Source: an uncultured beta proteobacterium
GTDB lineage: Bacteria > Pseudomonadota > Gammaproteobacteria > Burkholderiales > Burkholderiaceae_C
Length of the DNA: 33,514 nucleotides
NCBI GenBank assembly: GCA_903885585.1
Contig: CAISJH010000562.1
Span: 1-33,514, forward strand
Direction of reading: 5' to 3'
Shown one piece after another: positions 11,023 to 33,514 of the stretch. Position numbers and translations under genes: made by a program. Below the pieces are notes generated by a model that saw only the letters and a list, made by a program, of their open reading frames with translations, did not search any database and was not told the origin of the DNA. The stretch's first letter is position 1; each line of letters opens with the position of its first letter.

Positions 11023-11075
11023 GTTGTCTCCAGTCTCTTTTTCCAACTAGCTTAAGCTAGGTAACTTGCTCGCCG

Positions 11076-12851: not shown

Positions 12852-12971
12852 ATGGCTTCTTCGTGCGGAGTTCTCGCCGGCTATTGAACTTGCGATTGGT
12901 CCGACCAGCGACATCAATGAAGCGCGACTACGAGGCTTGGAAAAACTCACCACCGAACTTGATTTGCCACT

Positions 12972-13889: not shown

Positions 13890-13941
13890 GATTGCAAAGG
13901 CGCAATTTCTAAGACTCGTATGCCGGTCAACGGAACCAGCT

Positions 13942-15219: not shown

Positions 15220-15364
15220 GACTTTGGGAGGTTGTTTAATTTCGTTTGAAATAATAATATTTCGTTTTCAACTCGATTGGCGATTTGAATGTTAAAACAA
15301 GTATAGTTTAAAATCAATTCATTAATTTTATTGGGCGCGGAGCTTAATACCCGGCGTCACCCGC
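15220..15364. promoter_or_regulatory. Divergent promoter with 20-bp-spaced direct repeats
   Basis: ATTTCGTTT occurs at 15239-15247 and ATTTCGTTTT at 15259-15268, exactly 20 bp (two helical turns) apart, separated by an AT-rich linker. The first copy is also half of a palindrome ATTTC-GTTT-GAAAT (15239-15252). The same arrangement with ATTTCATTTT is found at 28795-28824. A TATAGT (15302-15307) with a TTGGCG 19 bp upstream is a candidate rightward promoter for the dehydrogenase gene. The repeats lie 20-50 bp ahead of the CoA-transferase start, where they could control it. Confidence 0.6.
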
Positions 15365-16552: not shown

Positions 16553-16722
16553 ACTAAAAATAAGCAACAGTTCATACTCAATTGAGCCTTCCGCAATCGG
16601 TCATGATGGTGAAGTTGGTTTTGGGCATTCAATCAAATTTTAAAAAGAGTAAGTGCAATATGATGAACTAGCCTTAGACCAAGTTGCCAGTGCTAGGTGG
16701 TCGCGTGAGCGCTAAAACGTAC

Positions 16723-18144: not shown

Positions 18145-18206
18145 TTTTTCTCCGATTAGGTAACCCAATCCAACCCTGACCCATTGGTAAGAGTGGGGAG
18201 GTGCAC

Positions 18207-18968: not shown

Positions 18969-18976
18969 GGATACAC

Positions 18977-19963
18977 TCACTCCGGCTCGATACCAGCACT
19001 CTTGACCATACGCTGCCACTTTTGGAGCTCCGCGCGCTGGAAGGTTGCGAGTTCAGCGCCGGTGCCGGGGAAGGGCTTCCACGCATTTTGGCCGAAGAAC
19101 TTTTCGGCTTCTGGCGTGCGCATGATTTGGGCAATCATCTGGCTCAGCTTGTCGGCCACAACTGGAGGGGTGCCCTTGGGTGCGAACGCCGCGAGCCAGC
19201 CGTTCAACTCAAAACCGCGAAGCCCCTGCTCTGCCATGGTCGGGATCTCTTCATAGCCCGGCATGCGCGCGCGCGTGGTCACGCCAAGCGCCTTCATCTT
19301 TCCAGCTCTCACCTGCGGCATGATAGCTGGCGCATCACCAAACACCATATCGATCTGCCCGCCCATCACGTCGGAAATGGCCATGGGCAGGGATCTGTAA
19401 GGCACGTGAATGATGTCGATGCCGCCCAGTTCCTTAAGCAGTTCACCGCTCACGCGGGCAGCCGAGTTGCCGCCACCAAAGCTCATCTTGCCGGGGTTCT
19501 TTTTGGCCAGCGCCAGCAGTTCCTGGACATTGTTGACCTGCGTGTTGGGCGATATGGCTAATACAGATCCGCCAATAATCACTCCCGAAAGCGGAACAAA
19601 GTCGGTAACAGGGTCGTACGGCACTTTCTTGAAAAGCGCTGCATTGGCTGCGTGTGTGGTGTTGGTCCCTATGGTAATGTTGTAACCATCCGCCGGCTGC
19701 TGTAGCAAATACTGCAGTGCAATGAACCCGTTGGCGCCGGCCTTGTTCTCCACCACAACCGGCTGCTTCGTCATGTCAGACAGGCGCTGGCCGATGAAGC
19801 GGGCCGCCAAGTCAGTTGTTGTTCCTGCGCCGAAGGGAACGATAATGTGTATCGGCTTATTAGGGAAAGTATCCACCACCTGAGCGAACGAAGCGCAGGT
19901 TGCGATAAAAAGCGCACAGCCCAGCAGCAGGCTACGGGTTATGTCATTTTGATACAAGATCAT
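18977..19963 (-). CDS. Bug/TctC family periplasmic substrate-binding protein (tandem copy A)
   Basis: The 328-residue receptor belongs to the tripartite-tricarboxylate-transporter receptor (Bug) family, periplasmic proteins that bind carboxylates. A signal peptide covers about residues 1-25 (hydrophobic SLLLGCALFIATCASFAQ). It is followed by FPNKPIHIIVPFGAGTTTD, the ligand-loop signature, then PADGYNITIGTNTTHA and YDPVTDFVPLS. The protein ends MVKSAGIEPE, identical to the next gene. The ATG at 19963 overlaps that gene's stop (ATGA). No TctA/TctB membrane genes are in the window, as is usual for orphan Bug genes. The two copies are clear paralogs by tandem duplication but differ in the loop regions, so they may bind related ligands. 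Confidence 0.92.
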   Translation of the reverse strand: MILYQNDITRSLLLGCALFIATCASFAQVVDTFPNKPIHIIVPFGAGTTTDLAARFIGQRLSDMTKQPVVVENKAGANGFIALQYLLQQPADGYNITIGTNTTHAANAALFKKVPYDPVTDFVPLSGVIIGGSVLAISPNTQVNNVQELLALAKKNPGKMSFGGGNSAARVSGELLKELGGIDIIHVPYRSLPMAISDVMGGQIDMVFGDAPAIMPQVRAGKMKALGVTTRARMPGYEEIPTMAEQGLRGFELNGWLAAFAPKGTPPVVADKLSQMIAQIMRTPEAEKFFGQNAWKPFPGTGAELATFQRAELQKWQRMVKSAGIEPE

Positions 19964-20952
19964 TCTGGCTCGATGCCCGCGCTCTTTACCATCCGCTGCC
20001 AGCGCAGAATGTCTGCCTTCTGGAAAGCAGCCAACTCGGGACCCGTCATAGGAATTGGCTTCCACGCGTTCGAGAGGAAGAACTTTTCAGCATCGGGTGT
20101 GCTCATGATGTCGGCGATCATCTTGCTCAGCTTGCCGGCCACATCAGGTGGCGTGCCCTTGGGCGCGAAAGCCGCAAGCCAGCCGGTGCTCTCATAGCCC
20201 TTCACACCCTGCTCGGCAATTGTGGGGATATCTTCTGCGCTCGGCATGCGGCCGATGGTGGAAACACCTAGCGCCTTGAGCTTGCCCGCACGGACCAAAG
20301 GTAGGATGGCCGGACCGTCGCCGAAAACCATGTCGATCTGGTTGCCCATCAAGTCGGTGATCGCACTTGGTAAGGCCTTATACGGTACGTGAATTATATT
20401 GATGCCAGCCAAGTCTTTAAGGATCTCGCCTCCAGACCGCGACGAAGAATTGCCGCTGCCGAAGGTCAATTTGCCAGGGTTCCTCTTAGCTTGGGCGATG
20501 AGGTCTTGCACGTTGTTTGCAGGATTGGAGGGCGATACGGCCAGCACCACGCCACCAATGGTCACTCCCGACAAGGGCACGAAGTCGGTCACCGGGTCAT
20601 ACGGCAGCTTTTTAAAGAACGCCACATTCGCCGAATGCGTGGTTACGGTGCCGATGGTGATGTGGTAACCATCCGCAGGCTGCTGCAACAAATACTGCAT
20701 CCCGATAAATCCGTTGGCGCCAGCCTTGTTTAAGATGATTACGGGCTGCTTGGTCTGATCAGTGATTTTCTGGCCAATGTAGCGAGCCGCCTGGTCGGTA
20801 GTTGTACCCGCTCCGAATGGCACGACGATGTGAATCGGCTTGTTAGGGAAACTCGCGGCGGTCTGTGCGAATAGAGTAAAGGGCGACAGTGCTGCACCCG
20901 CAAGCAGTGCGCCGCCGGTAAACAAGCTCTTGAGATTTGTCAGTAGTTTCAT
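19960..20952 (-). CDS. Bug/TctC family periplasmic substrate-binding protein (tandem copy B)
   Basis: A 330-residue Bug receptor with a signal peptide (MKLLTNLKSLF, then a hydrophobic run to LFAQ at about 30) and the family motifs FPNKPIHIVVPFGAGTTTD, PADGYHITIGTVTTHS and YDPVTDFVPLSG. It is a close paralog of the adjacent gene, sharing most motifs and the C-terminal MVKSAGIEPE. AAGGAG stands 8 nt before the ATG, the best ribosome site of the pair, so translation of copy A probably depends on this gene through the ATGA overlap. It likely delivers the acid used by this operon to an unlinked membrane component, or acts as an extracellular sensor ligand carrier. Confidence 0.92.
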   Translation of the reverse strand: MKLLTNLKSLFTGGALLAGAALSPFTLFAQTAASFPNKPIHIVVPFGAGTTTDQAARYIGQKITDQTKQPVIILNKAGANGFIGMQYLLQQPADGYHITIGTVTTHSANVAFFKKLPYDPVTDFVPLSGVTIGGVVLAVSPSNPANNVQDLIAQAKRNPGKLTFGSGNSSSRSGGEILKDLAGINIIHVPYKALPSAITDLMGNQIDMVFGDGPAILPLVRAGKLKALGVSTIGRMPSAEDIPTIAEQGVKGYESTGWLAAFAPKGTPPDVAGKLSKMIADIMSTPDAEKFFLSNAWKPIPMTGPELAAFQKADILRWQRMVKSAGIEPE

Positions 20953-20986
20953 GGATGGTCTCCTTTTGTGTGATTAAAAAACTCGC

Positions 20987-21505
20987 TTACTGCGGTCGGC
21001 CTTTCACCATGCGCAGAGGGTTGTAAGTAGCAACAACTTCGCCGCGCTGGTTTATAACGCGATTGAAAGTGCGCACAAGGCCGCGGCCCGGCTTGCTTGT
21101 GCCACGCGCTTCCACTACCTCGGCTTGCACCTGGATGGTGTCTCCCGCCACAGTGGGCCTGAGGATGCGTAGGTCGCACTCCAAAAAAGCCATGCCGGTC
21201 CGCTGCATGGTTGACTGCATCAGCAGCCCTTCGCAGATGCAATACACCAGGGAGCCAGGTGCCGGCCGCGCGCCGATCTTAGACTCTGATTTGATGTACT
21301 CGAGGTTGGTGAACATCTCTTCCACCATACCTGTGACGCCTACGAACATCGTGATATCGGCCTCGGTGATTGTGCGGGCAAGGGTTCGAAAGCGCTGACC
21401 AACTTTGAGGTCGTCCCAATACCAGCCCATGCCGTGTACAGCAATGTCGTTCCAGCCTTCAGTTTCACCAACGAATTTCTTCGTATCTAGTCCTTCTTTA
21501 CTCAT
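20987..21505 (-). CDS. MaoC-like hot-dog protein lacking the Asp-His dyad
   Basis: The 172-residue hot-dog-fold protein resembles MaoC dehydratases: WYWDDLKVGQRFRTLARTITEAD (residues 28-50) is the typical opening. In (R)-specific hydratases the motif is SGDxNPxH, with Asp and His five residues apart as catalytic pair. Here the corresponding TGMVEEMF has Met60 and Phe65, so both residues are replaced. It is therefore probably not a standard hydratase; it could be a binding partner, a thioesterase-like enzyme or use other residues. AAGGAGG lies 4 nt before the ATG, embedded in the end of the CaiB gene (ATGA overlap). Confidence 0.82.
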   Translation of the reverse strand: MSKEGLDTKKFVGETEGWNDIAVHGMGWYWDDLKVGQRFRTLARTITEADITMFVGVTGMVEEMFTNLEYIKSESKIGARPAPGSLVYCICEGLLMQSTMQRTGMAFLECDLRILRPTVAGDTIQVQAEVVEARGTSKPGRGLVRTFNRVINQRGEVVATYNPLRMVKGRPQ

Positions 21506-22764
21506 GGTGCCTCCTTGATAATGCCCTGCACGCTCCAGCTTTCGATCTCGCTATCACTCGCGCCCAACAAGCGGCGCAAGACTTTGTGCGTATGCTGGCC
21601 AAGCGTAGGCGGACCGACCTCATAGCAAATGGGGGTTTCTGAAAATCGCATTGGGTTCGCCACAGATGGCACTTGCCCAGCGCCCTTGTGCGTAAGTGAA
21701 AGCTGTAAGCCACGCGCCTTGACCTGAGGGTCCGCAAAGACGCGGTCGATCGTATTAATAGGGCCGCAGGGGACATCGATTGCTTCCATGGCCGAGACCC
21801 AGTCATTGATGCTGCGGGTTTTCGTGCGCTCTGTCATCATGTCCAGTAGCACCTCGCGGTTGGCTACGCGCAATGAAATGGTGGCAAAGCGCGGGTCATC
21901 GGCTGCATCACCAAGATCAAGCACATGCATCGCCTTGCGAAACTGAGTGTCATTGCCCACTGCGAGTATGAAATGACCATCGGTGGCCGGAAAGTACTGG
22001 TAGGGAACGATGTTCGGATGCCCATTGCCCATTCGCTGAGGTACCAAGCCTGTGGTGAGGAAGTTCATAGACTGGTTGGCCAGAACGGCAACCTGCACGT
22101 CGAGCATGCCGATATCCAGGTGCTGGCCGGTTCCTCCTGAATCACGGTGTCGCAATGCGGCCAAGATGCCAAGCGCTGCGTACATGCCCGACATAATGTC
22201 GGCCAGAGCAACGCCAGCTCGCTGCGGGCCGCCGCCGAGCTTGTGGTCGGGCTCGCCGGTTACGCTCATTAATCCGCCCATACCCTGGATCAAATAGTCA
22301 TAACCCGCTCGCTTCTTGTATGGCCCTGTCTGGCCAAAGCCGGTAATCGAGCAGTAGATGAGCTGAGGTAGTTCCTTGTGTATGCTTTCGTAGTCGAGGC
22401 CGTAACGCTTCAGGCCGCCAACTTTGAAATTTTCGACCAGAATGTCGCACTTTGCTGCGAGGGCTTTTACGAGTTTCTGGCCTTCGGTCGTTGCGATGTC
22501 AATGGCGACTGATTCTTTGCCGCGGTTTGCTACGAGAAAGTACGCCGCATCTGTGTTCTCGCCCGAGTGCTGGTCTTGGACGAAGGGCGGCCCCATCTGC
22601 CGCGTGTCATCACCGCCTTGAGGGTTCTCGATTTTGATGACCTCGGCACCAAGGTCAGCCAGATTCTGCGTGGCCCAAGGTCCCGCGAGGATACGCGTGA
22701 GATCAAGCACGCGCACGCCGGCCAGCGGTGCCTTAATTGTAGTGTTGGTAGTCGCGTCTGTCAT
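21502..22764 (-). CDS. CaiB/BaiF family CoA-transferase (class III)
   Basis: This 420-residue class III CoA-transferase moves CoA from one acyl-CoA to a free acid without ATP. The typical start PLAGVRVLDLTRILAGPWA (13-31), DLGAEVIKIE (37-46) and GYDYLIQGMGGLMSVTG (154-170) are present. The catalytic aspartate should be Asp189 in GVALADIMSG. The ATG at 22764 shares a base with the upstream stop (TGATG); a TTG just before it is not needed. Placed between an acyl-CoA dehydrogenase and a MaoC gene, it probably activates the starting acid or recycles CoA from a product, for example a dicarboxylate. Class III formyl-CoA, carnitine and succinyl-type members cannot be told apart by eye. Confidence 0.92.
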   Translation of the reverse strand: MTDATTNTTIKAPLAGVRVLDLTRILAGPWATQNLADLGAEVIKIENPQGGDDTRQMGPPFVQDQHSGENTDAAYFLVANRGKESVAIDIATTEGQKLVKALAAKCDILVENFKVGGLKRYGLDYESIHKELPQLIYCSITGFGQTGPYKKRAGYDYLIQGMGGLMSVTGEPDHKLGGGPQRAGVALADIMSGMYAALGILAALRHRDSGGTGQHLDIGMLDVQVAVLANQSMNFLTTGLVPQRMGNGHPNIVPYQYFPATDGHFILAVGNDTQFRKAMHVLDLGDAADDPRFATISLRVANREVLLDMMTERTKTRSINDWVSAMEAIDVPCGPINTIDRVFADPQVKARGLQLSLTHKGAGQVPSVANPMRFSETPICYEVGPPTLGQHTHKVLRRLLGASDSEIESWSVQGIIKEAP

Positions 22765-23903
22765 CAAAGACTCATTGACTTTGCGATGAGTGTGCGCTGA
22801 ATCTGAGATGTGCCCCCGCCGATGGTCGACTGCATGCCTTCGCGGAAGTAGCGCTCCATGTCGGCTTCGGGCAACATGCTGTGACCTCCAAGAATTTGCA
22901 TGCCATTGCGCGTGACTGTCTGTAGTGTCTCCGATGCCATCAGCTTGGCCATCGACACTTCACGTTGGCAGGGAATGCCACGTGAGGCCATTTCGGCCGC
23001 GCGGTAGACTATTAGGCGAGCCGCGTCTACTGCGGTCTGCATGTCGGCCAGCATATGACGAATGACTTGGAACTCGAAGATTGACTTGTCGAACTGGATG
23101 CGTTCGTGTGCATACCTGGTCGCATCAGTTACCGCCTGCTGCGCATTACCAACGTAAGCGGCCGAAACGGCGATGCGTTCCAGCTCTAGGTGGTCGGTGA
23201 TGATTTTCCAGCCGTCGCCAGGCTGGCCAAGCACGTTTGCATGTGGCACGATGGCGCCGTCGGCGAAGATCTCCGTCGTGCCGGTGGCACGGCGTGCCAT
23301 TGTTGGTAGCTTGCGGATGTCGAGACCCTTGGTGTCATTCGGTACCAGAAGGACCGTAAGGCCTTTGTGTTTAGTAGCTTCCTTGTCGCTCCGCGTAAGC
23401 ATGGCAATGACCACGTTGCGCGCCGCTGCGCCAGAGCACCACAGCTTCTGCCCCGTGATTTTCCAGCCCTCAGGAGTTTCTTCAGACCGCGTTTTCGTGT
23501 TAGCTGCATCGGAGCCTGCAGAAGGCTCAGAAATGGAAATCGAAAAGCGGATTTCACCCGCCATGAACGCTGGTAGAAATCGTTCCTGCTGGTCCTTCGT
23601 GCCGAACTTGCAGATGTTCATAGCCGTAAACGTCGACACCATGAAGGCGGTCGCAAAGTCAAAGCCGTAGCGTGCTAGGCCCTCGCACATTAGCGCGTAG
23701 TCAAAAATAGTGCCGCCGTCGCCGCCGTTTTCTTCAGGCACCAGCAGGCGTAGCCAGCCCATTTTTGCAATCTTGTCGTATGCTTCATATGGGTATTTAC
23801 GGTCGATGTCGCACTGGCGAACATACTCGCACGTGACTTCTTCCTGCATGACACGGTCAACCGTGTCTTTCCACATCTGCTGTTCGTCTGTAAGAAAGTT
23901 CAT
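22764..23903 (-). CDS. Acyl-CoA dehydrogenase, helix-G base type
   Basis: A 379-residue acyl-CoA dehydrogenase (FAD, ETF-linked). It shows SISISEPSAGSDAA (121-134), LWCSGAAARN (154-163), QILGGHSMLPEADMERYFRE and the terminal GGGTSQIQRTLIAKS. The residue that is Glu in short/medium-chain enzymes (IYEGT) is Gly here (IGGGT). Glu242 in LELERIAVS sits at the isovaleryl/long-chain base position. The ATG at 23903 is taken because the family starts at NFLTDEQQ; a weak GGA is 4 nt away. It lies 22 bp after the MaoC gene and overlaps the CaiB start. Substrate probably branched or bulky. Confidence 0.9.
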   Translation of the reverse strand: MNFLTDEQQMWKDTVDRVMQEEVTCEYVRQCDIDRKYPYEAYDKIAKMGWLRLLVPEENGGDGGTIFDYALMCEGLARYGFDFATAFMVSTFTAMNICKFGTKDQQERFLPAFMAGEIRFSISISEPSAGSDAANTKTRSEETPEGWKITGQKLWCSGAAARNVVIAMLTRSDKEATKHKGLTVLLVPNDTKGLDIRKLPTMARRATGTTEIFADGAIVPHANVLGQPGDGWKIITDHLELERIAVSAAYVGNAQQAVTDATRYAHERIQFDKSIFEFQVIRHMLADMQTAVDAARLIVYRAAEMASRGIPCQREVSMAKLMASETLQTVTRNGMQILGGHSMLPEADMERYFREGMQSTIGGGTSQIQRTLIAKSMSL

Positions 23904-23925
23904 AGTTCCAAATCTCTGGTTCAAT

Positions 23926-24384
23926 TTATTCAGGGTTTCGTTCAACAATCAGGCGTTCACGCCTGATAAGCAGGGTGAACTCGCAGCTCAGCACTTTCTC
24001 GTTGCGCTGGTTCACGACCCAAAGTTGTGCAGTGACGATGCCGTGCTTGTCGCCCTTGTCGCGCTTGGCAATGATCTCGGACTCGGCATGGATCGTGTCG
24101 TTAATGAAAGTAGGCTTTAGGAAGCGAAGCTTGTCCACGCCGTAGAAAGCCTCGACCACCGCGGAGTCAAAACCGAACATCGCATTGCCGATGACGAACA
24201 CCAACCCGCCCTGCACGACGCGCTGGCCATACATTGAACTCTTGGAAAACTCGGCGTTGGAGTGGATCTCGAGCCAGTTACCAGTGAGGCCGCAGAAGTT
24301 GACAACGTCGGTCTCGGTGATGGTGCGACCGTGCGAGCATTTCTTTTGGCCGATCGAGAGTTCACCGTATGGCAGGTTCATCAT
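23926..24384 (-). CDS. MaoC family dehydratase-like protein
   Basis: The 152-residue hot-dog protein has the MaoC layout: the hydratase-2 motif region reads GLTGNWLEIHSNAEF (32-46), with QRVVQGGLVF next. The conserved catalytic His is kept (His41) but the Asp five residues before it is Asn36. This Asp-to-Asn change would weaken a standard trans-2-enoyl-CoA hydratase mechanism, though several MaoC subgroups carry TGN here. Expected action is reversible hydration of an enoyl-CoA. The ATG at 24384 overlaps the stop of the PcaC-like gene (ATGA); a second Met follows at once. It differs strongly from the other MaoC gene at 20987. Confidence 0.85.
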   Translation of the reverse strand: MMNLPYGELSIGQKKCSHGRTITETDVVNFCGLTGNWLEIHSNAEFSKSSMYGQRVVQGGLVFVIGNAMFGFDSAVVEAFYGVDKLRFLKPTFINDTIHAESEIIAKRDKGDKHGIVTAQLWVVNQRNEKVLSCEFTLLIRRERLIVERNPE

Positions 24385-24932
24385 TTTGAAGTTTTCCCGG
24401 AGCTTTTCTTTTTTGTACCTGCTTTTGTGGCAACGTGCAATGAGGCTTTCCTAGGTTTTGCAGCAGCTTTAACCATGTCCCCGACAAACTTTTTGCCTTC
24501 CCCTTTTTCCTCGAGCACTGACAAGTCGATTTTGTGTTCCTTGAGCAGTCGGCGCGCGATAACGAAGCAATCTCGACCGACGGGGATGCCGCAGTACATG
24601 CCGATGTGCAGCAAAAGCTCGCGGATTTTATTAAGCGGTGGTTTCGTCCGTGTGATTGCTATCTTGAAGTGCAACTCGAATTCTTCCATGCGGCCAAGTC
24701 CAGCCAGCATGGCCATGTTGATCAGGCTGTATTCTTGGTGGCTGATGATGCCGCGAGCCCAGGTGCGTGCCCAAAGCTGGTTGTTGAGATAAGCCTGCCA
24801 CTCAGCGTCAAACGGCGTGCTTTGCAGCGCAGTCTTTACGTATGCGCCGCCCACGACAGTGAGTCGTGTCTCATGGCCAAGTTTGGCGTGTGGTGTGTTG
24901 GCGTTTGTGGGTGCTCCGAAGTCTGCTTTCAT
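24381..24932 (-). CDS. Carboxymuconolactone decarboxylase (PcaC)-like protein with basic tail
   Basis: A 183-residue protein whose middle (about residues 38-140) matches the CMD/PcaC fold: STPFDAEWQAYL, MAMLAGLGRMEEFELHFK with His88, and IRELLLHIGMYCGIP. PcaC decarboxylates gamma-carboxymuconolactone. There is no CxxC, so it is not an AhpD peroxidase. Residues 145-183 form an unusual Lys/Ala/Ser-rich tail (KAAAKPRKAS, TKKKSSGKTSK), absent from typical PcaC. The ATG at 24932 is preceded by TTGGAAACA; a TTG at 24953 inside the SDR stop region is less likely. It could remove a carboxyl group added by the carboxylase or present on the substrate, or open a lactone. Confidence 0.83.
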   Translation of the reverse strand: MKADFGAPTNANTPHAKLGHETRLTVVGGAYVKTALQSTPFDAEWQAYLNNQLWARTWARGIISHQEYSLINMAMLAGLGRMEEFELHFKIAITRTKPPLNKIRELLLHIGMYCGIPVGRDCFVIARRLLKEHKIDLSVLEEKGEGKKFVGDMVKAAAKPRKASLHVATKAGTKKKSSGKTSK

Positions 24933-24949
24933 ATTGTTTCCAATTGATG

Positions 24950-25744
24950 TCAAAGGGTGGTGAAGCCGCCGTCGACGGCTAGGTCGGAGCCCGTTATGAA
25001 CGATGAGGCATCGCTTGAAAGGAACAGCGCCGTGTTGGCAATCTCCACTGGCTGGCCGTAGCGCAGCAGCGGGTAGCGGGAAACCGTCTGGCGCTTGCCC
25101 TCGGGGTCGTCCTTGTAGCGGAAGGCAGTGCGGCTTGTCTCGACGCCGCCGGGCGAGATCGTGTTTACACGGATGTTGTCAGGCGCATGGTCCACCGCCA
25201 GGGTCTTAGCCAGCATGATCATCCCGCCTTTGGTAGTGCCATAAGCGGCGCGCCCTGCGCGTGCGACGTTGCCGTGCATTGATGCGATGTGGATGATGGA
25301 GCCACCTCCTGCCGCGATCATCGGTGGCAGCGCCGCACGGCTCACGAGGAAGGCACCGGTAAGGTTGATGCTGATCACTTCGTTCCATTCGGCCAGGCTG
25401 TAGTCGGTGATCTTTGCTGTCTTGTCTAGCATGGCGGCGCAGTGGACTAGCACATGGCAGTTACCGAGGGCTGCCACAGCATCAGAGATTGCTTTGTTAA
25501 CAGAAGCTTCAGACGCAACATCGCAGACAAGCGCAACTGCGCGGCCACCTTTTTGAACAATCTCTAGCGCCACGCTCTGTGCGGCTATGAGCGAAAGGTC
25601 TAGGCATGCAACGCTCGCGCCTGCGCCCGCTAGTATGCGGCACGTTGCAGATCCGATGGCGCCGCCACCGCCGGTGACGATGGCAATTTTGCCGTCGAGT
25701 CTGAAGTTGCCAGCGGCGCCAACAGGGACATAAGGCCCAATCAT
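24950..25744 (-). CDS. SDR family oxidoreductase, classical
   Basis: A 264-residue short-chain dehydrogenase: TGGGGAIG (24-31), catalytic Ser155, Tyr168 and Lys172 (YGTTK), and a C-terminal ITGSDLAVDGG. CAA replaces the usual NAG triad at residues 102-104. An Asp at the end of the second strand (CLDLS) suggests NAD(H). The N-terminus carries about 16 extra residues before the fold. The ATG at 25744 overlaps the stop of the Bug receptor gene (ATGA). Role inferred: oxidation of a hydroxyacyl-CoA or alcohol intermediate of this operon. Confidence 0.9.
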   Translation of the reverse strand: MIGPYVPVGAAGNFRLDGKIAIVTGGGGAIGSATCRILAGAGASVACLDLSLIAAQSVALEIVQKGGRAVALVCDVASEASVNKAISDAVAALGNCHVLVHCAAMLDKTAKITDYSLAEWNEVISINLTGAFLVSRAALPPMIAAGGGSIIHIASMHGNVARAGRAAYGTTKGGMIMLAKTLAVDHAPDNIRVNTISPGGVETSRTAFRYKDDPEGKRQTVSRYPLLRYGQPVEIANTALFLSSDASSFITGSDLAVDGGFTTL

Positions 25745-26718
25745 TCCAACGTTGCTCCAGAGCTCTTGATGATCGGAGCCCACTTTTCGCGCTCGCTGCG
25801 CAGCAACTTGGTGAAGTCAGCAGCCGAGCCGCCAATGGGAAAGAGGCCCGCGTCATAGAACTGCTGCTGCACCGAAGGGACCTTCATCGCGGCCATAGCG
25901 GCAGTCTGTAGTTTGATGATCACGGCCGGCGGCGTGGCTGCAGGTGCCATCAGGCCGCCGTAAGAGACCATCTCGTAACCCGGCACGCCGGCTTCAGCCA
26001 CCGTGGGCAGGTCGGGAAATGTCTTGGAGCGGTAGGGGTTGGTAGCTGCAATCACGCGCACCTTGCCCCCCTTGATCAGTTGGCCGGCGACGGCGGTGGA
26101 AAGAATGGCGGCGTCAATACGATCGCCCACGAGGTCGAGCAGGGCAGGGCTCTCACCTTTGTACGGCACGTGCGTCAGTTCGATCTGCGTCATGTAATTG
26201 AAGAGTTCCATAGCCAGGTGCTGCGGGCCGCCCGTGCCTGACGAGCCGTAGGTCAGCTTGCGTTCCTTGGCGAGCTTGATGAATTCCTGAACGTTCTTCA
26301 CGGGAAGGCCGTTGCGAACTATCAGAAGATGGTCATAGGTGACGATATGGCTGATGGAGGCGAGGTCTTTCTCGACCTTGTAGGAAAGGTTCGGGTCCAT
26401 AATCGGGCGCAACGTCAGATTTCCCGGACCGCCGAAGACCAGCGTGTAACCGTCAGCTGGCGACTTGGCCACCATGTCGGTGCCGATGACGCCAGCAACG
26501 CCTGGCTTGTTTTCGACGATCACGGTCTGGCCAAGCAGTTTGGCCATCTCGCCCGCGAGCAGGCGGGCCGACACGTCTGTGGCGCCGCCGGGTGGGTATG
26601 GCACGACGATGCGGACTGTCTTTTGTGGAAAGTTAGTCTGTGCAATGGAGGGCGAGTGGGAAAACAGGATACCGCAAGCCGCTAGGCCAAGCAAAGTAAA
26701 GTGGAAGAGTTTTTTCAT
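25741..26718 (-). CDS. Bug/TctC family periplasmic substrate-binding protein (third, divergent)
   Basis: The 325-residue Bug receptor has a signal peptide (MKKLFHFTLLGLAACGILF to about residue 25, ending SIAQ) and family motifs FPQKTVRIVVPYPPGGATD, ENKPGVAGVIGTD, PADGYTLVFG and YGSSGTGGPQHLAMELF. Its ligand loop PYPPGGATD is the common Bug form, unlike the PFGAGTTTD of the tandem pair, so it probably recognises a different acid. GGAG is 6 nt before the ATG at 26718, and a frame to 26730 is not supported. It sits third in the operon after the dehydrogenase and crotonase. Confidence 0.92.
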   Translation of the reverse strand: MKKLFHFTLLGLAACGILFSHSPSIAQTNFPQKTVRIVVPYPPGGATDVSARLLAGEMAKLLGQTVIVENKPGVAGVIGTDMVAKSPADGYTLVFGGPGNLTLRPIMDPNLSYKVEKDLASISHIVTYDHLLIVRNGLPVKNVQEFIKLAKERKLTYGSSGTGGPQHLAMELFNYMTQIELTHVPYKGESPALLDLVGDRIDAAILSTAVAGQLIKGGKVRVIAATNPYRSKTFPDLPTVAEAGVPGYEMVSYGGLMAPAATPPAVIIKLQTAAMAAMKVPSVQQQFYDAGLFPIGGSAADFTKLLRSEREKWAPIIKSSGATLE

Positions 26719-26759
26719 GGCTGTCTCCAAGTGATGTGAAAGTCTGAAAGGGATGTAAG

Positions 26760-27548
26760 TCAGTGGGTGCCGCGCAGCCTGTTGGCCATCGCGCGGACTG
26801 CGTCGTCGTGTTCAGGGGTACTGTGCGCGATTGCCTGGAACGCCGCCGACATCTCCAGGAGTGATTCGATTCTGGTGTGCTGGCCCTCGCGCAACAGGCG
26901 CTTGGACATTCGCAGCGCATGCGGTGGGTTGGCGGCAATGCGTGTTGCGAGCGATCGAGCCTCGGCCATGAGCTGGCCGGCTGGTACGACTTTTGAGACG
27001 AGGCCGCAGGCCAGTGCCTCAGCTGCATTGATGGCATCGCCAGTGAATGTCATCTCGGCCGCCTTTGACATGCCGACAGTCCGAGGCAGCAGCCAAGCAC
27101 CTCCGTCGCCAGGAATGATGCCGAGCTTGACGAAGCTCTCTGCAAAGCGCGCCGACTCTGAGGCGATCCTGATGTCGCACATGCAGGCCAGGTCACAGCC
27201 AGCGCCGATCGCCGGGCCGTTCACGGCTGCGATGGTCGGCACTTCAAGGTGATACAGCGCCAATGGGATGCGCTGGATGCCCAACCGGTAGCGGTTCTGG
27301 ATTTCGAGAGTGGAGCCTTGGGCGATGCCGAGCTTGTCACGCATGTGCTTGATGTTACCGCCCGCGCAGAATGCGCTGCCCGCGCCAGTGAGAATCACGC
27401 AGCGCGCCGACATGTCGTCGCGGATGCGCGCGCAGGCATTCACGAATTCGTCGAACTGCGCCTCATCCGATAGAGGATTGCGCTCTTCAGGCCGGTTCAT
27501 GGTCAGCGTGACAATGCCGTCCTGCTTTTCATAGATAAGGAAGTCCAT
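26760..27548 (-). CDS. Enoyl-CoA hydratase/isomerase family, PaaG-like active site
   Basis: A 262-residue crotonase. Oxyanion-hole segments are FCAGGNIKHM (60-69) and NGPAIGAGCDLACMCD (110-125). The second catalytic glutamate is kept (Glu165 in AEMTFTGD). The first is Phe139, and an acid, Asp148, appears in IIPGDGGAWLLPR, the loop where PaaG-type ring-opened/epoxide isomerases have their Asp. The protein could therefore be an isomerase or a hydratase of unusual substrate. ATG shares a base with the stop of the dehydrogenase gene (TGATG). Confidence 0.9.
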   Translation of the reverse strand: MDFLIYEKQDGIVTLTMNRPEERNPLSDEAQFDEFVNACARIRDDMSARCVILTGAGSAFCAGGNIKHMRDKLGIAQGSTLEIQNRYRLGIQRIPLALYHLEVPTIAAVNGPAIGAGCDLACMCDIRIASESARFAESFVKLGIIPGDGGAWLLPRTVGMSKAAEMTFTGDAINAAEALACGLVSKVVPAGQLMAEARSLATRIAANPPHALRMSKRLLREGQHTRIESLLEMSAAFQAIAHSTPEHDDAVRAMANRLRGTH

Positions 27549-28735
27549 CAGCAGTGCATCCCCATTTGACGCGCGATGATGCGCAGCTGGATCTCTGGCG
27601 TGCCCTCTCCGATGTATGACTCTGGGCCATCGCGAAATAGTCGTGGGATTCCGCTTTCTTCCATGTAGCCATAACCGCCGTGCAGGTTAACGGCCTGCTG
27701 CGTGCAGAAGATCACGGCGTCGGCTGTCATGAACTTGCCCATGGATGCACAGCGGTGCGATTCCCTGCCGGCAATCACGTCCTTCGCGGCGCTATAGACC
27801 ATGAGTCGCGCGGCTTCGATGCGTGCGGCCATTTCGGCCACCTTGAAAGCCACGCCCTGAAACTGGCCGATCTTCTTGCTGAAGGCCTCACGCTCCTGCG
27901 CATATTTGAGAGTTTTCTCCATCGCGATTTGCGCAATACCAAGGCCGCGCGTTGCCTGCATCACACGGCCCGAAGATAGAGTCGACTTGAGCTGCGAAAG
28001 GCCACCGCCGACTTCGCCGAGCAGATGGCCGGCACCGACGCGCACATCGCTGAAAGATACCAGCGCTGTTGACGATGAATGGTTGCCGAGCTTGTCCAAG
28101 GGCGATGCCTCGATGCCCTTGAGATTGCGATCCACAATGAACAGCGAAATTGCATCGGGTTTGCGCTCTGGCGAGGTACGCGCCGCGAGGATGTAGTAGT
28201 CGGCAATCGTGCCGTTGGTGATGTAGACCTTGCTGCCGGAGATGATCCAGCCATCGCCGTCACGGCGAGCACGAGTCTTGATGCCCTGCACGTCGCTGCC
28301 AGCATCAGGCTCAGTCAGCGCGAAGGCGCCGATGCGTTCTGCCTTAAGGGCAGGGAACATGAACTCGCGCTTTTGCGCTTCGCTACCGAGTTCATAAAGG
28401 GGGCGCACGGCAAGATGCTGGTGTGCGAAAACGCCAGCTGAGACACCTGCCGGAATTCGCGTGAGCTCTTCGTAATAGACGCAACCAAGTAGGATGTCGC
28501 CGCCGCCACCGCCCAGTTCTTCAGGATAGTCGGGCGCGAGAAAGCCACCCTCAGCAAGCACCTTATAGACCTCGCGAGGGAACTGCCTGTCACGCTCGCC
28601 CTGTAACGCCAGAGGCTCCAAACGCTTGGTTACAAAACGGCGAAACTGATCTCGGAACTGGAGGTGCTCTGGCGCGAGCAGTACGTCGGCCGCAAAATAA
28701 GTTTGCTGCCCATTTACATCCATGTTGACGGCCAT
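27548..28735 (-). CDS. Acyl-CoA dehydrogenase, short/medium-chain type
   Basis: The 395-residue enzyme starts the long leftward operon. Motifs are FALTEPDAGSDVQG, VYITNGTIADYYI, NLHGGYGYMEESGIPRLFRD and YIGEGTPEIQLRIIARQ. The catalytic base is at the usual place, Glu377 in IGEGT, and the helix-G position is Gly (SSGRVMQ). It should oxidise an acyl-CoA to its 2-enoyl form and feed ETF. AAGGAG lies 5 nt before the ATG. It is one of a divergent pair of dehydrogenases with the gene at 28892, across a promoter holding the 20-bp-spaced repeats. Confidence 0.92.
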   Translation of the reverse strand: MAVNMDVNGQQTYFAADVLLAPEHLQFRDQFRRFVTKRLEPLALQGERDRQFPREVYKVLAEGGFLAPDYPEELGGGGGDILLGCVYYEELTRIPAGVSAGVFAHQHLAVRPLYELGSEAQKREFMFPALKAERIGAFALTEPDAGSDVQGIKTRARRDGDGWIISGSKVYITNGTIADYYILAARTSPERKPDAISLFIVDRNLKGIEASPLDKLGNHSSSTALVSFSDVRVGAGHLLGEVGGGLSQLKSTLSSGRVMQATRGLGIAQIAMEKTLKYAQEREAFSKKIGQFQGVAFKVAEMAARIEAARLMVYSAAKDVIAGRESHRCASMGKFMTADAVIFCTQQAVNLHGGYGYMEESGIPRLFRDGPESYIGEGTPEIQLRIIARQMGMHC

Positions 28736-28891
28736 CTTTCTCCTTCATCAACGAACGGGCCTTTTTAGGCTTTGTAATTGATCATACCCCACTCATTTCA
28801 TTTTCGGTAATGATATTTCATTTTGTTGAATACCATGTAAAATACCTGTACATTCCACTATCTCACTTCTGATTTCATTTATAAATGGCCA
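28736..28891. promoter_or_regulatory. Divergent promoter with 20-bp-spaced direct repeats
   Basis: ATTTCATTTT occurs at 28795-28804 and again at 28815-28824, exactly 20 bp apart, and a third near-copy ATTTCATTTA at 28872-28881. The same layout with ATTTCGTTT is found at 15239-15268. For the leftward operon TATGAT (28786 to 28781, minus strand) is a good -10, with TTACCG 18 bp upstream as a weak -35. The first repeat would then fall between -35 and -10. For the rightward gene TAAAAT (28838-28843) is a possible -10 and the second repeat would overlap its -35 region. This fits control of both directions by one regulator. Confidence 0.62.
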
Positions 28892-30040
28892 ATGAATAAG
28901 TACTTCCTGACTGAGGAGCAGCTCGCTATCCAGGAGGGCATCAGGCGCTTTTGCGACGAGGCCATTGCACCACTTGCAAGCAAGATAGACGAGACTGGCG
29001 AGTTTCCGCATGCCATCTTCCGACAGCTGGGCGAACTGGGTTACATGGGGGTTTCAACTCCCGTGGGGCTTGGCGGCGGCGGGCTTGACCTCGTATCGAT
29101 TTGCTTGGTTTTGGAGGAGATCTCCAAAGCATCGGGCGCCGTGGGAAGCTCTTACAACGCGCATATTGGCCTTGCCACCACCGTCATCAGCGAGTTCGGC
29201 TCCGACGAGCAGAAGCGCAAGTACCTGCCCGACCTCACGTCGGGCCGAAAGATAGGCGCCTTTGGCCTAACCGAGCCGGGCGGCGGGTCAAATGCTGGCG
29301 CCCCTTCCACGCGTGCGGTGCTGAAAAACGGCGATTGGTACATCACCGGCTCAAAGGCCTTCAACACCAACGGCTTCGTGGCGGACACCTTCGTCATCAC
29401 TGCCAAAACCGACAACGGCGTGACAGCTTTCATCTTGGAGCGCGGCATGCCGGGCTTCGAAATCGGCCCACCCGACAAGAAGATGGGCGTGAGTGGTTCG
29501 CCCACCAGTACGCTTTATTTTCAAGACGTGAAGGTGCCAGATGCCAACCGCGTCGGCGAGGAGGGCAAGGGTTTTCGCAAGTTCGCGCGCACACTAGATA
29601 AAGGGCGAGTCAATGTGTCGGCGCTATCGGTGGGCTTGGCGCAGGCAAGTTATGAAGCAGCGGTGGCTTATTCAAAAGAACGCACACAGTTCGGAAAGCC
29701 GATTGGTGCTTTTCAGGGGATTCATTTCCAGCTGGCTGAAATGGCAACCGACATTGAGGCCGCGCGCCTGATGATGCTGAATGTAGCGCGCATGTACGAC
29801 TCCGGCCAGCCCATCAAGATGGAAGCCGCCATGGCGAAGTACTTTGCCGCCGAAGCTAGCCTTCGGGTGTGCGACAAGGCCATCGAAATTTTTGGCGGCT
29901 ATGGGTATTTGCGCGATTTTCCAGTCGAGCGGTACTACCGCGACGCAAAGATGTATCAGATCGGCGAGGGTACGAGTCAGATCCAGCGGATCATCATTGC
30001 GCGCGAAATTCTGGGCAAAGCAATCGTCAGTTTTGCTTGA
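28892..30040 (+). CDS. Acyl-CoA dehydrogenase, short-chain type
   Basis: A 382-residue acyl-CoA dehydrogenase with [48 protein letters not shown] and [21 protein letters not shown]. The C-terminal base Glu359 is in place and the helix-G position is non-acidic (DKGRVN), as in short-chain and 2-methyl-branched-chain enzymes. No clear ribosome site precedes the ATG at 28892. A five-codon frame ATG-GCC-AAT-GAA-TAA (28885-28899) overlaps the start and could affect initiation. It begins the rightward transcript that continues through the MaoC stub to the AMACR-like gene. Confidence 0.92.
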
Positions 30041-30081
30041 TGGGCCAAGCATTGCAGCGCCTTCGTCCTCCCGGAGAATCC

Positions 30082-30177
30082 ATGAACAACGAACTCGAAA
30101 CAATCGGTCTTGGCCTGATCTGGGAGAAGCTGCCGCTGGGCATGCTTTGTAGAGCAGGCTTTGAAAGGGGACTTTGA
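30082..30177 (+). pseudogene. MaoC-type dehydratase N-terminal stub (31 aa)
   Basis: A short frame starts at an ATG with GGAG 6 nt upstream and encodes 31 residues. GLGLIWEKLPLGM (residues 9-21) aligns with GMGWYWDDLKVGQ of the MaoC protein at 20987 and with the general MaoC opening. The normal continuation (F-R-T-x-x-R-T-I-T-E-x-D) is missing; the frame runs into LCRAGFERGL and a TGA one base before the ATG of the next gene. I read this as a MaoC gene reduced by internal deletion to its start, with ribosome site retained. It may still be translated and help couple the following gene. Confidence 0.5.
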
Positions 30178-30178
30178 G

Positions 30179-31312
30179 ATGGGACCTCTTGCTGGACTGA
30201 AGATCGTCGAATTCGCAGGCATCGGGCCTGGCCCGTTCGCCGCGATGCTGTTGGCTGACCTTGGCGCGGAGATTATTCGAATCGAGCGCAAGGAGTTTTC
30301 ATGCATGGGTCTGCAGCGTCCTCGTGAATACGACTACGCCATGCGTAACCGGACCACCATCCATCTTGACCTCAAGTCGCCACAAGGCGTCGAATTCGCA
30401 CTGCGCCTAGTTGACCAAGCGGATGCACTAATGGAAGGATTCCGACCGCAGGTCATGGAGCGCCTCGGGGTAGGGCCCAATGTCTGTATAACGCGCAATC
30501 CCAAACTGGTCTACGGGAGAATCACTGGTTGGGGCCAGAGCGGACCACTCGCGCTCGCGGCGGGGCATGATCTGAACTACATCGCTCTCACGGGCGCACT
30601 TCACGCAATAGGTCGGCAAGGGCAAGCGCCGGCCATTCCACTTAATTTACTGGGCGACTATGCGGGAGGTTCTCTTTATCTCGTGATCGGCATGCTCAGT
30701 GCACTGCACGAGGCAAAGTCATCTGGGCGTGGACAAGTCGTCGATGCAGCAATTGTGGACGGTGTAGCTTCGCTGTCGACACAGCTCTATGGAATGATCA
30801 AGTCTGGTTTACTCAATCACGAACGCGGAACTAACTTCATCGATTCGGGCGCACATTTTTACGACGTCTACGAATGTGCCGACGGCAAATGGATCTCCAT
30901 CGCACCAGTCGAGTCCAAGTTCTATGCGCTTATGCTGCAGTTGGTCGGCGTCGACATCGAAACACCGCAGTTGCAGCGCGCAGGTTGGCCCGCTGCAAAA
31001 GTAAAAATAGCTCAGCGCGTCCGAACCAAAACGCGTGACGAGTGGACTCAACTGCTAGAAGGCACCGACATGTGCTTCGCCCCCGTATTGGATCTCGATG
31101 AAGCGATCGATCACCCGCACATGAAGGCCCGTGGCATTTTTGTGGACATCGCAGGGGAAGTTCAGCCTGGCCCAGCGCCGCGCTTTAGCCGAAGTGACCC
31201 GGGGACACCGAAACCGGGCGTGGTGGCCACCCATGAAACAGTATGCGGCTTACTGCACGGATGGTTGGATGAAAAAGAAGTAAATGCCGCATACGAGGCA
31301 GGCACGATATGA
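30179..31312 (+). CDS. CaiB/BaiF family, alpha-methylacyl-CoA racemase-like
   Basis: A 377-residue class III fold protein closest to alpha-methylacyl-CoA racemase (AMACR/MCR), which inverts the 2-methyl centre of acyl-CoAs so that the S form can be dehydrogenated. Both acid/base residues are present with exact spacing: His130 in AAGHDLNYIALTG and Asp160 in LLGDYAGGSLYL are 30 apart, as His126/Asp156 in the mycobacterial enzyme. The start PLAGLKIVEFAGIGPGPFA is typical. ATG at 30179 has AAGGGGA about 8 nt upstream; a TTG at 30161 is less likely. A racemase here strongly suggests that 2-methyl-branched acyl-CoAs occur in the pathway. Confidence 0.88.
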   Translation: MGPLAGLKIVEFAGIGPGPFAAMLLADLGAEIIRIERKEFSCMGLQRPREYDYAMRNRTTIHLDLKSPQGVEFALRLVDQADALMEGFRPQVMERLGVGPNVCITRNPKLVYGRITGWGQSGPLALAAGHDLNYIALTGALHAIGRQGQAPAIPLNLLGDYAGGSLYLVIGMLSALHEAKSSGRGQVVDAAIVDGVASLSTQLYGMIKSGLLNHERGTNFIDSGAHFYDVYECADGKWISIAPVESKFYALMLQLVGVDIETPQLQRAGWPAAKVKIAQRVRTKTRDEWTQLLEGTDMCFAPVLDLDEAIDHPHMKARGIFVDIAGEVQPGPAPRFSRSDPGTPKPGVVATHETVCGLLHGWLDEKEVNAAYEAGTI

Positions 31313-31603: not shown

Positions 31604-32395
31604 ATGGATCTGTATTTGAGTGGTAAACATATTTTGATTACTGGCGGCAGCAAAGGCATTGGCTTAGCCTGTGCTGAAGCATTTTTGGCAGAGGGCGCTC
31701 GCGTCAGTTTGGTGTCTCGCAGCGAGTCCAACTTGGAGCGAGCGCTAGAGCGGTTGGCCGGCCATGGTGTAAACCGCGTCAGTGCGTACGCCGCAGACTT
31801 AACCCAGCCCGCTTCTGCACAAACTGCACTATCAGCAGCCATTGCAGATTTTGGGCCTTTGGATGTGCTGGTCAATTCAGCGGGTGCCGCCAAGCACACG
31901 CCTGCGCCGGAGTTAACACCACAAGCTTGGCAAGACGCAATGCAAGCCAAATACTTTAGCTATATCCACATGATCAACCCAGTCATTAAACAAATGGCTC
32001 AGCGCGGCAAGGGTAGTATTGTCAATGTGGTGGGCAATGGCGGCAAAGTGGCTAGCCCTACTCATTTGGCGGGTGGTGCAGCCAATGCTGCACTAATGTT
32101 GGCAACGGCTGGGCTGGCTAATGCCTTCGCTTCGCAGGGCATTCGAGTCAATGCTATCAACCCAGGACTGACACGTACTGATCGATTGCAAGAGGTCATG
32201 GCAGCCGATGCGATTTTGCAGGGCATCGAAATAGATGAAGTCATGAAACGCGCTGTGGCCAAAATTCCAATAGGTCGGATGGCAGAGCCCGAAGAAATTG
32301 CCCGAGTTGTCTTGTTCTTGGCGTCTGACGCTGCCAGTTATGTGACGGGCATCAACATGAGTATGGATGGGTCAACCACACCCTTGCTAGTTTAA
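31604..32395 (+). CDS. Atypical SDR-fold protein without the YxxxK active site
   Basis: A 263-residue SDR-fold protein with a normal cofactor loop TGGSKGIG (13-20), NSAG (91-94) and a C-terminal YVTGINMSMDGS. At the active site the expected Ser-Tyr-x-x-x-Lys is gone: the aligned stretch reads HLAGGAANAAL, with Gly157 at the Tyr and Asn161 at the Lys position, and Gly near 144 for Ser. It still should bind NAD(P) but not do classical hydride chemistry through Tyr/Lys. GGAG stands 6 nt before the ATG. Base composition is visibly more AT-rich than the catabolic genes to the left, so it may have a different origin. Confidence 0.85.
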   Translation: MDLYLSGKHILITGGSKGIGLACAEAFLAEGARVSLVSRSESNLERALERLAGHGVNRVSAYAADLTQPASAQTALSAAIADFGPLDVLVNSAGAAKHTPAPELTPQAWQDAMQAKYFSYIHMINPVIKQMAQRGKGSIVNVVGNGGKVASPTHLAGGAANAALMLATAGLANAFASQGIRVNAINPGLTRTDRLQEVMAADAILQGIEIDEVMKRAVAKIPIGRMAEPEEIARVVLFLASDAASYVTGINMSMDGSTTPLLV

Positions 32396-32523
32396 TTTCG
32401 ATAGTGAAGTTAAACACAACAGATGAAGATCTGCAAGGCCGTCCGAGGCCAGGGTGTGTGAGACAAATAGGAGTACTTGATTAAAGGAGTATTTTGGTTT
32501 GTCTCAAAACTTAAGAAGCGGAG
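32396..32523. repeat. Intergenic stretch with long-arm hairpin
   Basis: TGAGACAAA (32459-32467) and TTTGTCTCA (32498-32506) form a perfect 9-bp inverted repeat around a 30-nt loop. The loop contains GGAGTA twice (32470-32475 and 32486-32491). No T-tract follows, so it is not a standard terminator. It lies between the SDR stop and the small ORF at 32524 and could be an RNA leader structure or an insertion-element end. Confidence 0.45.
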
Positions 32524-32667
32524 ATGAAATTGAAATTCATTCAACCCAAGGCCACTGCAAAGCAGGTAGTCAAAGAAATATCAAAAGTGGGCATATGTTT
32601 GATGCCAGGGCATTGTCAAAATGACTTTTTACCAACGGCTAGACTCGAGCCGCTCAATAGGAGTTAA
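32524..32667 (+). CDS. Small ORF, 47 aa, unknown
   Basis: A 47-residue frame beginning MKLKFIQPKATAKQVVKEIS and containing VGICLMPGHCQNDF. I do not recognise it. The pattern of a helix (ATAKQVVKEIS) followed by a short strand and PG resembles the first residues of phytanoyl-CoA dioxygenase-type proteins, so it could be a truncated gene, but this is weak. GGAG abuts the ATG too closely for a good ribosome site. Its TAA (32665-32667) overlaps the ribosome site region of the Rid gene, one base before that gene's TTG, so translation through it could help the next start. Confidence 0.3.
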   Translation: MKLKFIQPKATAKQVVKEISKVGICLMPGHCQNDFLPTARLEPLNRS

Positions 32668-32674
32668 CTTGTTC

Positions 32675-33061
32675 ATGTATCGCAAAGTGATCGAATTAGA
32701 TAAACCCTGGACTAGGACGGTTCCTTTCTCCCTGGGTGTGGTGGGTGAGAGTCGTATCCTCTTTACAGCGGGAATCACCGCACGGGACTCTGAAGGAGAA
32801 GTGGTTGGAAAGGGAGATATGCGAGCGCAGATGGAGATGTGTTTCCAAAATGTAGGTGATGTGTTGCGCGCCGCAGGCACCGATTTCGGTAACGTTTTGA
32901 AGTGGACCATGTACACCACGGACATTGATGAGTTCTCAAAGAATGCGGATGTTTACAAGCGACATTTCATCAACAGCCCTGCGAGTACCTTGGTCGAGGT
33001 GAGGCGCCTGATTTTTCCTGAAATGCTTGTCGAGATAGAGGCTGTTGCTTCTCTGCCCTAA
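32675..33061 (+). CDS. Rid/YjgF/UK114 family protein lacking the imine-deaminase arginine
   Basis: The 128-residue trimer-forming Rid-fold protein shows LFTAGITARDSEGEVVGKGD (29-48) and QNVGDVLRAAGTDFGNVLKWTMYTTD in the expected order, ending LVEIEAVASLP. RidA proteins deaminate reactive enamines/imines using an Arg in the motif PARSCVEV; here the motif is PASTLVEV with Ser104 instead, as in Rid subgroups of unknown activity often linked to catabolic clusters. I place the start at the ATG 32675. A TTG at 32669 has better spacing to AGGAG (32659-32663) and would add two residues. A terminator-like hairpin follows at 33094. Confidence 0.85.
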   Translation: MYRKVIELDKPWTRTVPFSLGVVGESRILFTAGITARDSEGEVVGKGDMRAQMEMCFQNVGDVLRAAGTDFGNVLKWTMYTTDIDEFSKNADVYKRHFINSPASTLVEVRRLIFPEMLVEIEAVASLP

Positions 33062-33093
33062 CTATTTGAATAACAAATGGATTTAGATGAAAA

Positions 33094-33124
33094 AACCCGC
33101 ATCACTTTTGCAAGTCTGCGGGTT
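33094..33124. terminator. Rho-independent terminator-like hairpin (possibly bidirectional)
   Basis: AACCCGCA (33094-33101) pairs with TGCGGGTT (33117-33124) around a 15-nt loop, followed by CTTT. An A-run precedes the left arm (33090-33095), giving U residues if read from the other side. It lies 33 bp after the Rid gene stop and is the best terminator in the window. Confidence 0.7.
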
Positions 33125-33450
33125 CTTTAGTGCGCTTAATGTTTCTAATTTGAAACTTAGATATTTTCAGTCTTTTGGATTACTCTGAAATCGCTTAAAA
33201 GCAATGATTTCATTGAGTTTCTTGGCTACTCAACCTGAGCTTGAAAGAAGAAATACCTTAACGTATAGTAGTGTGATTTTTATTGAAATTGCAGTATCAT
33301 TGCTACACCGTTGCAGCGGTACTGTTGCACGCGCTCCCTTCACACTGCAGTGATCTTTGTAAAACTTTGTTTAACTTAACAATGCTATTTACAAATCAAT
33401 TCACCTGCTTATAATCACCCACACACTTGCTTTTCACTGCGAAAAGTACT
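33125..33450. other. AT-rich non-coding region next to the attachment site
   Basis: No gene is visible in this 326-bp AT-rich stretch. It contains GTTTC/GAAAC inverted (33141-33145 and 33152-33156). Right before the tRNA fragment there is a stem CTTTTC/GAAAAG (33430-33435 and 33441-33446, 5-nt loop) and a palindrome AAAGTACTTT (33443-33452) that straddles the junction. Such short repeats beside a tRNA 3' end are what integrase arm and core sites look like, but no integrase gene lies here. Confidence 0.4.
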
Positions 33451-33495
33451 TTGACATGGTGGGGGTCGTTGGTTCGAGTCCAATCGCGCCTACCA
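33451..33495 (+). other. 3' half of tRNA-Val(GAC): probable attachment-site junction
   Basis: These 45 bases read as tRNA positions 32-76: anticodon loop TTGACAT with GAC at 33453-33455, the 3' stem strand GGTGG, variable loop GGGTC, T-arm GTTGG-TTCGAGT-CCAAT, acceptor strand CGCGCCT, discriminator A and encoded CCA (33493-33495). The 5' half is absent: the base-pairing partner of GGTGG (CCACC) is replaced by GTACT, and no AGGCGCG acceptor strand or D-arm lies upstream. It cannot fold as a tRNA. Identity to tRNA begins at the anticodon loop, a usual crossover place for tyrosine integrases, so this is best read as the distal att repeat of an integrated element, with chromosome resuming to the right. 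Confidence 0.82.
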
Positions 33496-33514
33496 ATATC
33501 TTCAATTAAATCAA

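Follow-up and report, generated by a model that had tools for sequence, protein, structure and literature searches.

An exact 3′ half of tRNA-Val(GAC) at the end of a catabolic contig: a probable attR-type end

Introduction

Does a 3′ half of a tRNA gene that stands alone at the end of a contig mark the boundary of an integrated element, and do the catabolic genes beside it belong to that element? The question is raised by a half tRNA-Val(GAC) near the right end of contig C562, which was analyzed over its entire length of 33,514 bases (the window). The contig was filed in an assembly of 862 contigs (5,475,447 bases; listed completeness 95.71%, listed contamination 6.32%), which, with that number of contigs, is taken as a metagenome bin. 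The sections of the Islander paper used here (PMC4383910) give anticodon-centered sites in 2083 of 3919 islands and a 3′ fragment in 3760, and include among the criteria for an island an intact cognate tRNA upstream in the same orientation, an integrase between tRNA and fragment, and a length of 2–200 kb.

Results

The fragment and its boundary

The fragment and the sequence to its right were located as follows.

33451..33495, + strand: 3′ half of tRNA-Val(GAC), anticodon loop to CCA, most likely an attR-type core (45/45 identity to the tRNA of G000:C832; no tRNA called by ARAGORN)
33496..33514, + strand: 19 bases up to the end of the contig, with a weak likeness to the sequences downstream of tRNA-Val in relatives (compared with 57 flanks and with 5000 shuffles)

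Positions 33451–33495 read TTGACATGGTGGGGGTCGTTGGTTCGAGTCCAATCGCGCCTACCA and matched the intact tRNA-Val(GAC) gene on contig C832 of the same assembly (G000) over its 3′ part at 45 of 45 bases, with zero mutations. Identity started at the first base of the anticodon loop, extended through CCA and broke sharply on the left, where base 33450 is T in the window and C in the intact gene. A 46-base query (the core plus base 33450) matched the window once at ≤3 mismatches, with no second copy of the core, and gave no match in any of 100 shuffles. The 31-base 5′ half was not found in the window on either strand at ≤3 mismatches, ARAGORN called no tRNA there, and no Rfam family reached its gathering score; the sole sub-threshold Rfam match, HPnc0260 (minus strand, 53.6 bits, gathering score 59), lies over the tRNA part and was interpreted as the tRNA's antisense strand, not as a new RNA. 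The initial annotation, which had described an exact 3′ half without a 5′ half at these positions, was therefore confirmed to the base.

Measured against Islander, the fragment reaches the 3′ end of the tRNA gene (45/45 to CCA) and overlaps no conserved coding domain, the last listed ORF of at least 90 amino acids stopping at 33061 (PF01042). Because identity begins where tyrosine integrases that target tRNA genes have their standard ‘A’ crossover, at the anticodon loop, and 10 of the 75 copies of the core in the genus are halves of this kind (below), the fragment is, judged from its sequence, most likely an attR-type end. It is a real attachment-site half of an ordinary kind, and the element behind it is putative.

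Since the window is the complete contig, no more than 19 bases follow the half on its right. Mean identity of 33496–33514 to the 57 tRNA-Val flanks was 7.0 of 19 compared with 5.2 in shuffles (24 of 5000 shuffles reached 7.0), and the best identity to a single flank was 13 (reached by 28 of 5000), which gives modest support to a native tRNA-Val flank that would resume at 33496. The earlier proposal that the host chromosome resumes near this position was borne out to that extent, but the flank is unlike that of C832 and the contig is compositionally foreign to the assembly.

Other copies of the core

At ≤3 mismatches the core was found in 65 of 81 genomes of the genus, at 75 places that were sorted one by one, via ARAGORN or the 5′-half sequence, into 64 intact genes, 10 halves (nine genomes, the window's half included) and one copy truncated where its contig ends. 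Intact gene and half shared a single contig in G015 (about 8 kb from gene to half) and in G066 (about 10.4 kb apart); the half in G005 carried two mismatches. A tyrosine-integrase frame lay 6–96 bases inside the half in 6 of 10 halves outside the window, a set of eight halves from the genus and two from family genomes (G406 and G311) that were chosen for their match, so that the set is not a random sample; the G005 half stood outside the prefiltered integrase comparison and was read by eye, and only 183 upstream bases were visible for the G011 half. The tRNA-Val(GAC) elements of G015, G066, G067, G406 and G311 resemble the window in the identical 45-base core at the half end and differ in the integrase frame 6–96 bases inside it; at that place AT-rich DNA and a RidA gene are present in the window.

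Two larger arrangements were also seen. In G032 (G032:C9:312396-517767) one contig bears both an intact tRNA-Val and an exact half, with about 205 kb between them, perhaps a single very large island or a series of islands. Two exact halves with 8.8 kb between them, each with its own integrase frame, lie on G067:C106 (L036), in what looks like a tandem array.

The exact core was present in at least 120 IMG/VR stretches. Among the IMG/VR loci listed, 21 of 35 intact genes were followed by an integrase at a distance of up to 3 kb. Inside the half, an integrase was present over the same distance in 5 of the 61 halves with 3 kb visible and lacking in 56; a further 15 halves had <3 kb visible, and many halves are not independent, having one host flank in common. 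The missing integrase beside the window's half is accordingly not decisive, since most of these halves also have none within 3 kb. Many of the IMG/VR halves listed have the common flank AACAAAATCCGCTCTGCTGGGCGGT and similar inner ends, and one host lineage therefore seems to carry many prophages at tRNA-Val. The accessible part of a Variovorax paper shows tRNA-Ser and tRNA-Val(TAC) sites and no GAC site.

Partner tRNA and integrase

An intact tRNA-Val(GAC) with an adjacent integrase had been expected to the left of the half. Neither was on the contig, which ends before any left copy, and the intact tRNA and any integrase of the putative element are not seen because the contig ends. No integrase domain was detected on C562, either by a PF00589 search of the assembly, which gave 17 matches elsewhere, or by our own HMM in the 33.5 kb. 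The only other copy of the core in the assembly (≤3 mismatches) was the gene on C832. That gene is uninterrupted, lies between relA/spoT-like and glgC-like genes (named by eye from translations) and has a right flank different from that of the window's half. Because the flanks differ, an element inserted in the C832 gene cannot have this half as its right end; this pairing was rejected, the C832 gene continuing directly into its own terminator and the glgC-like gene. Elsewhere in the assembly, contig C380 has three consecutive tyrosine recombinase matches, one with an internal TAG.

Compared with Islander-type islands, the window has an exact 3′ fragment from anticodon loop to CCA, outside the genes found, and a core that is duplicated in relatives. 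It differs in what is seen on the same replicon: the intact cognate tRNA required upstream is absent from the contig, which ends, and the assembly's copy is on C832 with a different flank; the integrase required between tRNA and fragment is absent from the 33.5 kb visible, and the left end of the unit is off the contig.

Non-coding DNA at the right end

The stretch between the last gene and the half contains the following features.

33090..33128, no strand assigned: inverted repeat, terminator-like, after the RidA gene (related terminator beside tRNA-Met in G295)
33129..33450, no strand assigned: AT-rich non-coding end (33062–33450, 36% GC)
33388..33415, + strand: sigma-70-like promoter match TTTACA-16-TATAAT, outward across the half (11/12 consensus bases; consensus match only)
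33428..33448, + strand: 8-bp hairpin between promoter-like match and core (predicted fold of 33422–33514)

No direct repeat family of ≥9 bases was found in the AT-rich end. The promoter-like match, which was noticed after the fact, scores 11/12, a level reached by two shuffles when the final 100 bases were shuffled 400 times; at the looser level of 9/12 the end region holds two matches, with a shuffle mean of 1.9. It was the best of the 80 halves compared, none of the other 79 exceeding 9, while among 82 intact tRNA-Val genes three also reached 11/12 and one reached 10. This comparison kept 79 halves and 82 intact genes (7 halves and 20 intact genes had no candidate) and omitted repeated upstream sequences, copies ≤101 bases from the end of a locus and edge copies. 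The match stops 35 bases before the core, and the best matches of intact tRNA-Val genes usually stop at 44–45 bases; because its position is near that of intact tRNA-Val promoters, it could be an old tRNA promoter.

ICEclc carries catabolic genes, has a tRNA-derived end and inserts in tRNA-Gly, and its promoter Pcirc, at the end opposite the integrase, drives the integrase only once the element has circularized. In the parts of the literature used here, ICEclc of Pseudomonas knackmussii has Pcirc as an outward-facing constitutive promoter (PMC9286271), listed at position 102,729 for the intB13 transcript (PMC2892462). The window is similar in that a candidate outward promoter, here a consensus match only (11/12), accompanies a tRNA-derived end and catabolic genes, and differs in its tRNA fragment, which is of tRNA-Val(GAC) and not of tRNA-Gly. 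A scan of 35 window proteins (E 1e-5) recognized no conjugation genes, although a large ICE would lie mostly beyond the contig. There is a slight chance that the match is a strong outward promoter reading through the core and, in the integrated state, transcribing only the half and its flank. It is equally doubtful that, in a circle formed by excision, the candidate promoter would face the left end and switch on an integrase there, as a Pcirc-like switch in an otherwise undescribed catabolic element at tRNA-Val.

Genes near the contig ends

Genes and gene remnants near the two ends of the contig were identified by protein family and DNA matches.

2..499, + strand: P27-type phage terminase small subunit, left open by the contig's left edge (PF05119, E 1.4e-11; phrog_83, E 1.5e-13)
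31604..32395, + strand: SDR oxidoreductase (PF13561)
32456..32534, + strand: remnant of the start of a DUF5681 gene (leader plus first codons), not in frame (77% DNA match to G384, E 4.0e-9)
32621..33061, + strand: RidA/L-PSP family protein, the gene nearest to the half (PF01042, E 3.8e-25)

The terminase small subunit gene (41% GC, GC3 0.46) has 34% identity to that of Methylophilaceae phage P19250A, the sole phage relative found, and scores below NCBIfam's own cut-off for TIGR01558. Relatives were found in none of 398 other family genomes at E 1e-8, and none was confirmed in viral contigs. No terminase large subunit follows, because no ORF of at least 90 amino acids starts between 500 and 932, and no other contig of the assembly shares the left 950 bases of the window. 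The G384 gene that matches the 79-base remnant is PF18932 (DUF5681, E 3.3e-11); its Pfam domain starts at residue 34 and is itself not matched in the window, and the frames of the remnant were read by eye. These phage traces at both contig ends fit a patchwork of mobile DNA, and neither proves an element that runs from end to end.

The terminal 1 kb, minus the core, was compared with 398 other family genomes and gave two short, weak matches only, one to a terminator (G295) and one to a DUF5681 leader (G384); with the core included, the family search returned, among the matches listed, mostly tRNA genes. No counterpart of the terminal 1 kb was found in viral contigs, and plasmids gave only partial SDR matches, in seven records. 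With no real counterpart in family genomes, viral contigs or plasmids, no related element end was found.

Catabolic blocks

The catabolic genes occupy most of the window.

933..31312, no strand assigned: catabolic gene clusters (protein family matches; blocks shared with L109 and L112)

They encode an acyl-CoA carboxylase-like protein, a CoA ligase, crotonases, acyl-CoA dehydrogenases and CoA transferases, together with TctC-type binding proteins and IclR-type regulators. GC3 was 0.51 and 0.56 in the last two genes compared with 0.58–0.75 in the other catabolic genes. Eight of the 80 named loci were compared with the window, and in these the two blocks have separate closest relatives, L112 for the first and L109 for the second. 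Window positions 18977–30064 are common to L109 in two main pieces of 79 and 81% DNA identity, synteny ending at 30064, and positions 1800–12840 are common to L112 in five pieces of 67–75%, four of them collinear; L110 and L111 have only single genes in common with the window.

Five genomes were searched for the core at ≤3 mismatches, which was found at 1, 0, 0, 2 and 1 places in the genomes of L109, L110, L111, L112 and L116, respectively. The four copies in L109, L112 and L116 are intact genes, each on a contig that differs in length from the contig bearing the catabolic match, and in none of the five genomes are core and match on one contig; catabolic clusters of this kind occur elsewhere without the tRNA-Val mark. 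The earlier interpretation is partly supported: the exact half and the core duplicated at element ends in relatives speak for an element, and the catabolic genes, parts of whose blocks lie on contigs without the core in 5 of 5 genomes, are no more than possible cargo of it.

Composition of the contig

Base composition was compared between the window and sampled contigs of the assembly; of the 41 contigs sampled, the 11 that read as N were excluded, and C670, which was fetched on purpose, was left outside the GC mean and inside the tetranucleotide range. Window GC was 56.7%, compared with 64.0–71.1% in 29 readable contigs (5.6 sd below). Tetranucleotide correlation was 0.57–0.76 for six window pieces and 0.88–0.97 for 22 contigs. 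Contigs of the assembly that bear integrases are also lowish in GC (C670, 60.7%; stretches of C65, 59.8%, and C228, 59.9%), and an island may deviate in composition from the very genome that carries it.

Window correlations with 20-kb samples from 20 other genomes of the family were 0.64–0.87 with no clear winner; 18 of the 20 exceeded the value for the assembly's own contigs (0.71), and L109 reached 0.89. Because no sampled genome stands out, no host is named by composition. The gene at 28892–30040 has 92% protein identity to L109, a MAG named Ramlibacter sp., and a GC3 of 0.69 compared with 0.84 there; this protein identity, combined with the lower GC3, suggests long residence in a lower-GC host. 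Since the contig is compositionally foreign, it has probably been mis-binned or, less likely, recently acquired, mis-binning being the simplest reading.

Discussion

The half is probably a displaced 3′ fragment of tRNA-Val(GAC) that forms the attR-type right end of an integrated element or of its remains, on a contig probably foreign to the chromosome of the assembly. A tyrosine integrase would have crossed over at the anticodon loop in this copy, as in relatives in which the core is duplicated, and left the displaced fragment at 33451–33495 with the element on its left and the native tRNA-Val flank on its right. The left end of the element, with its intact tRNA and any integrase, would lie beyond the contig.

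The half may instead be a relic, whether a decayed site, the end of a lost small element or a tRNA-Val that has lost its 5′ half and kept its promoter, in which case the catabolic genes would be ordinary neighbors. We consider this somewhat unlikely. In its favor, no integrase stands beside the half, the DUF5681 remnant at 32456–32534 indicates local decay, the core is absent from the block's contig in 5 of 5 genomes, L109 synteny ends at 30064, a half with two mismatches exists in G005, and the promoter-like match 35 bases before the core is near the 44–45 usual for intact tRNA-Val genes. Against it, the 45-base core is free of mutations, and elements with the integrase at the far end are also bare at the half (56 of 61 listed IMG/VR halves with 3 kb visible). 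If the contig does belong to the genome, it would be a recent catabolic island, as the initial annotation proposed, away from the assembled C832 tRNA or present in part of the population. The right flank unlike that of C832, the single intact tRNA-Val core of the assembly, the foreign composition of all six contig pieces in an assembly with 6.32% listed contamination, and the GC3 of 0.69 versus 0.84 that points to long lower-GC residence make this unlikely, even though the closest relative of one block is in the MAG named Ramlibacter sp. (L109; 92% protein, 79–81% DNA), tRNA-Val is repeatedly used as an insertion site in the genus, and the integrase-bearing contigs of the assembly are somewhat low in GC too. 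Genomic islands are often lower in GC.

Two further explanations concern the origin of the fragment itself. An assembly artefact joining a conserved tRNA segment to unrelated sequence would account for a contig that stops 64 bases after the core start, and the core is common to many organisms; this is improbable, as identity starts sharply at a biologically meaningful point and inspection by eye showed no sequence common to both sides that might have caused a wrong assembly. If an intron in the anticodon loop split the tRNA gene, its second part would also begin at that loop, but the 5′ half is not in the window and no intron family, group I included, was detected at E up to 1 in 30001–33514, so that a split gene is very unlikely, its probability being close to nil. 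The displaced attachment-site half is the preferred reading.

When a draft contig ends in a clean half-tRNA, this alone neither proves the adjoining catabolic genes mobile nor assigns them to the organism of the assembly. For the genus, the copies of the core identify tRNA-Val(GAC) as a repeated insertion site. If the left end of this contig were found together with an integrase, the locus would become a catabolic island with a mapped end and possibly an excision-linked promoter.
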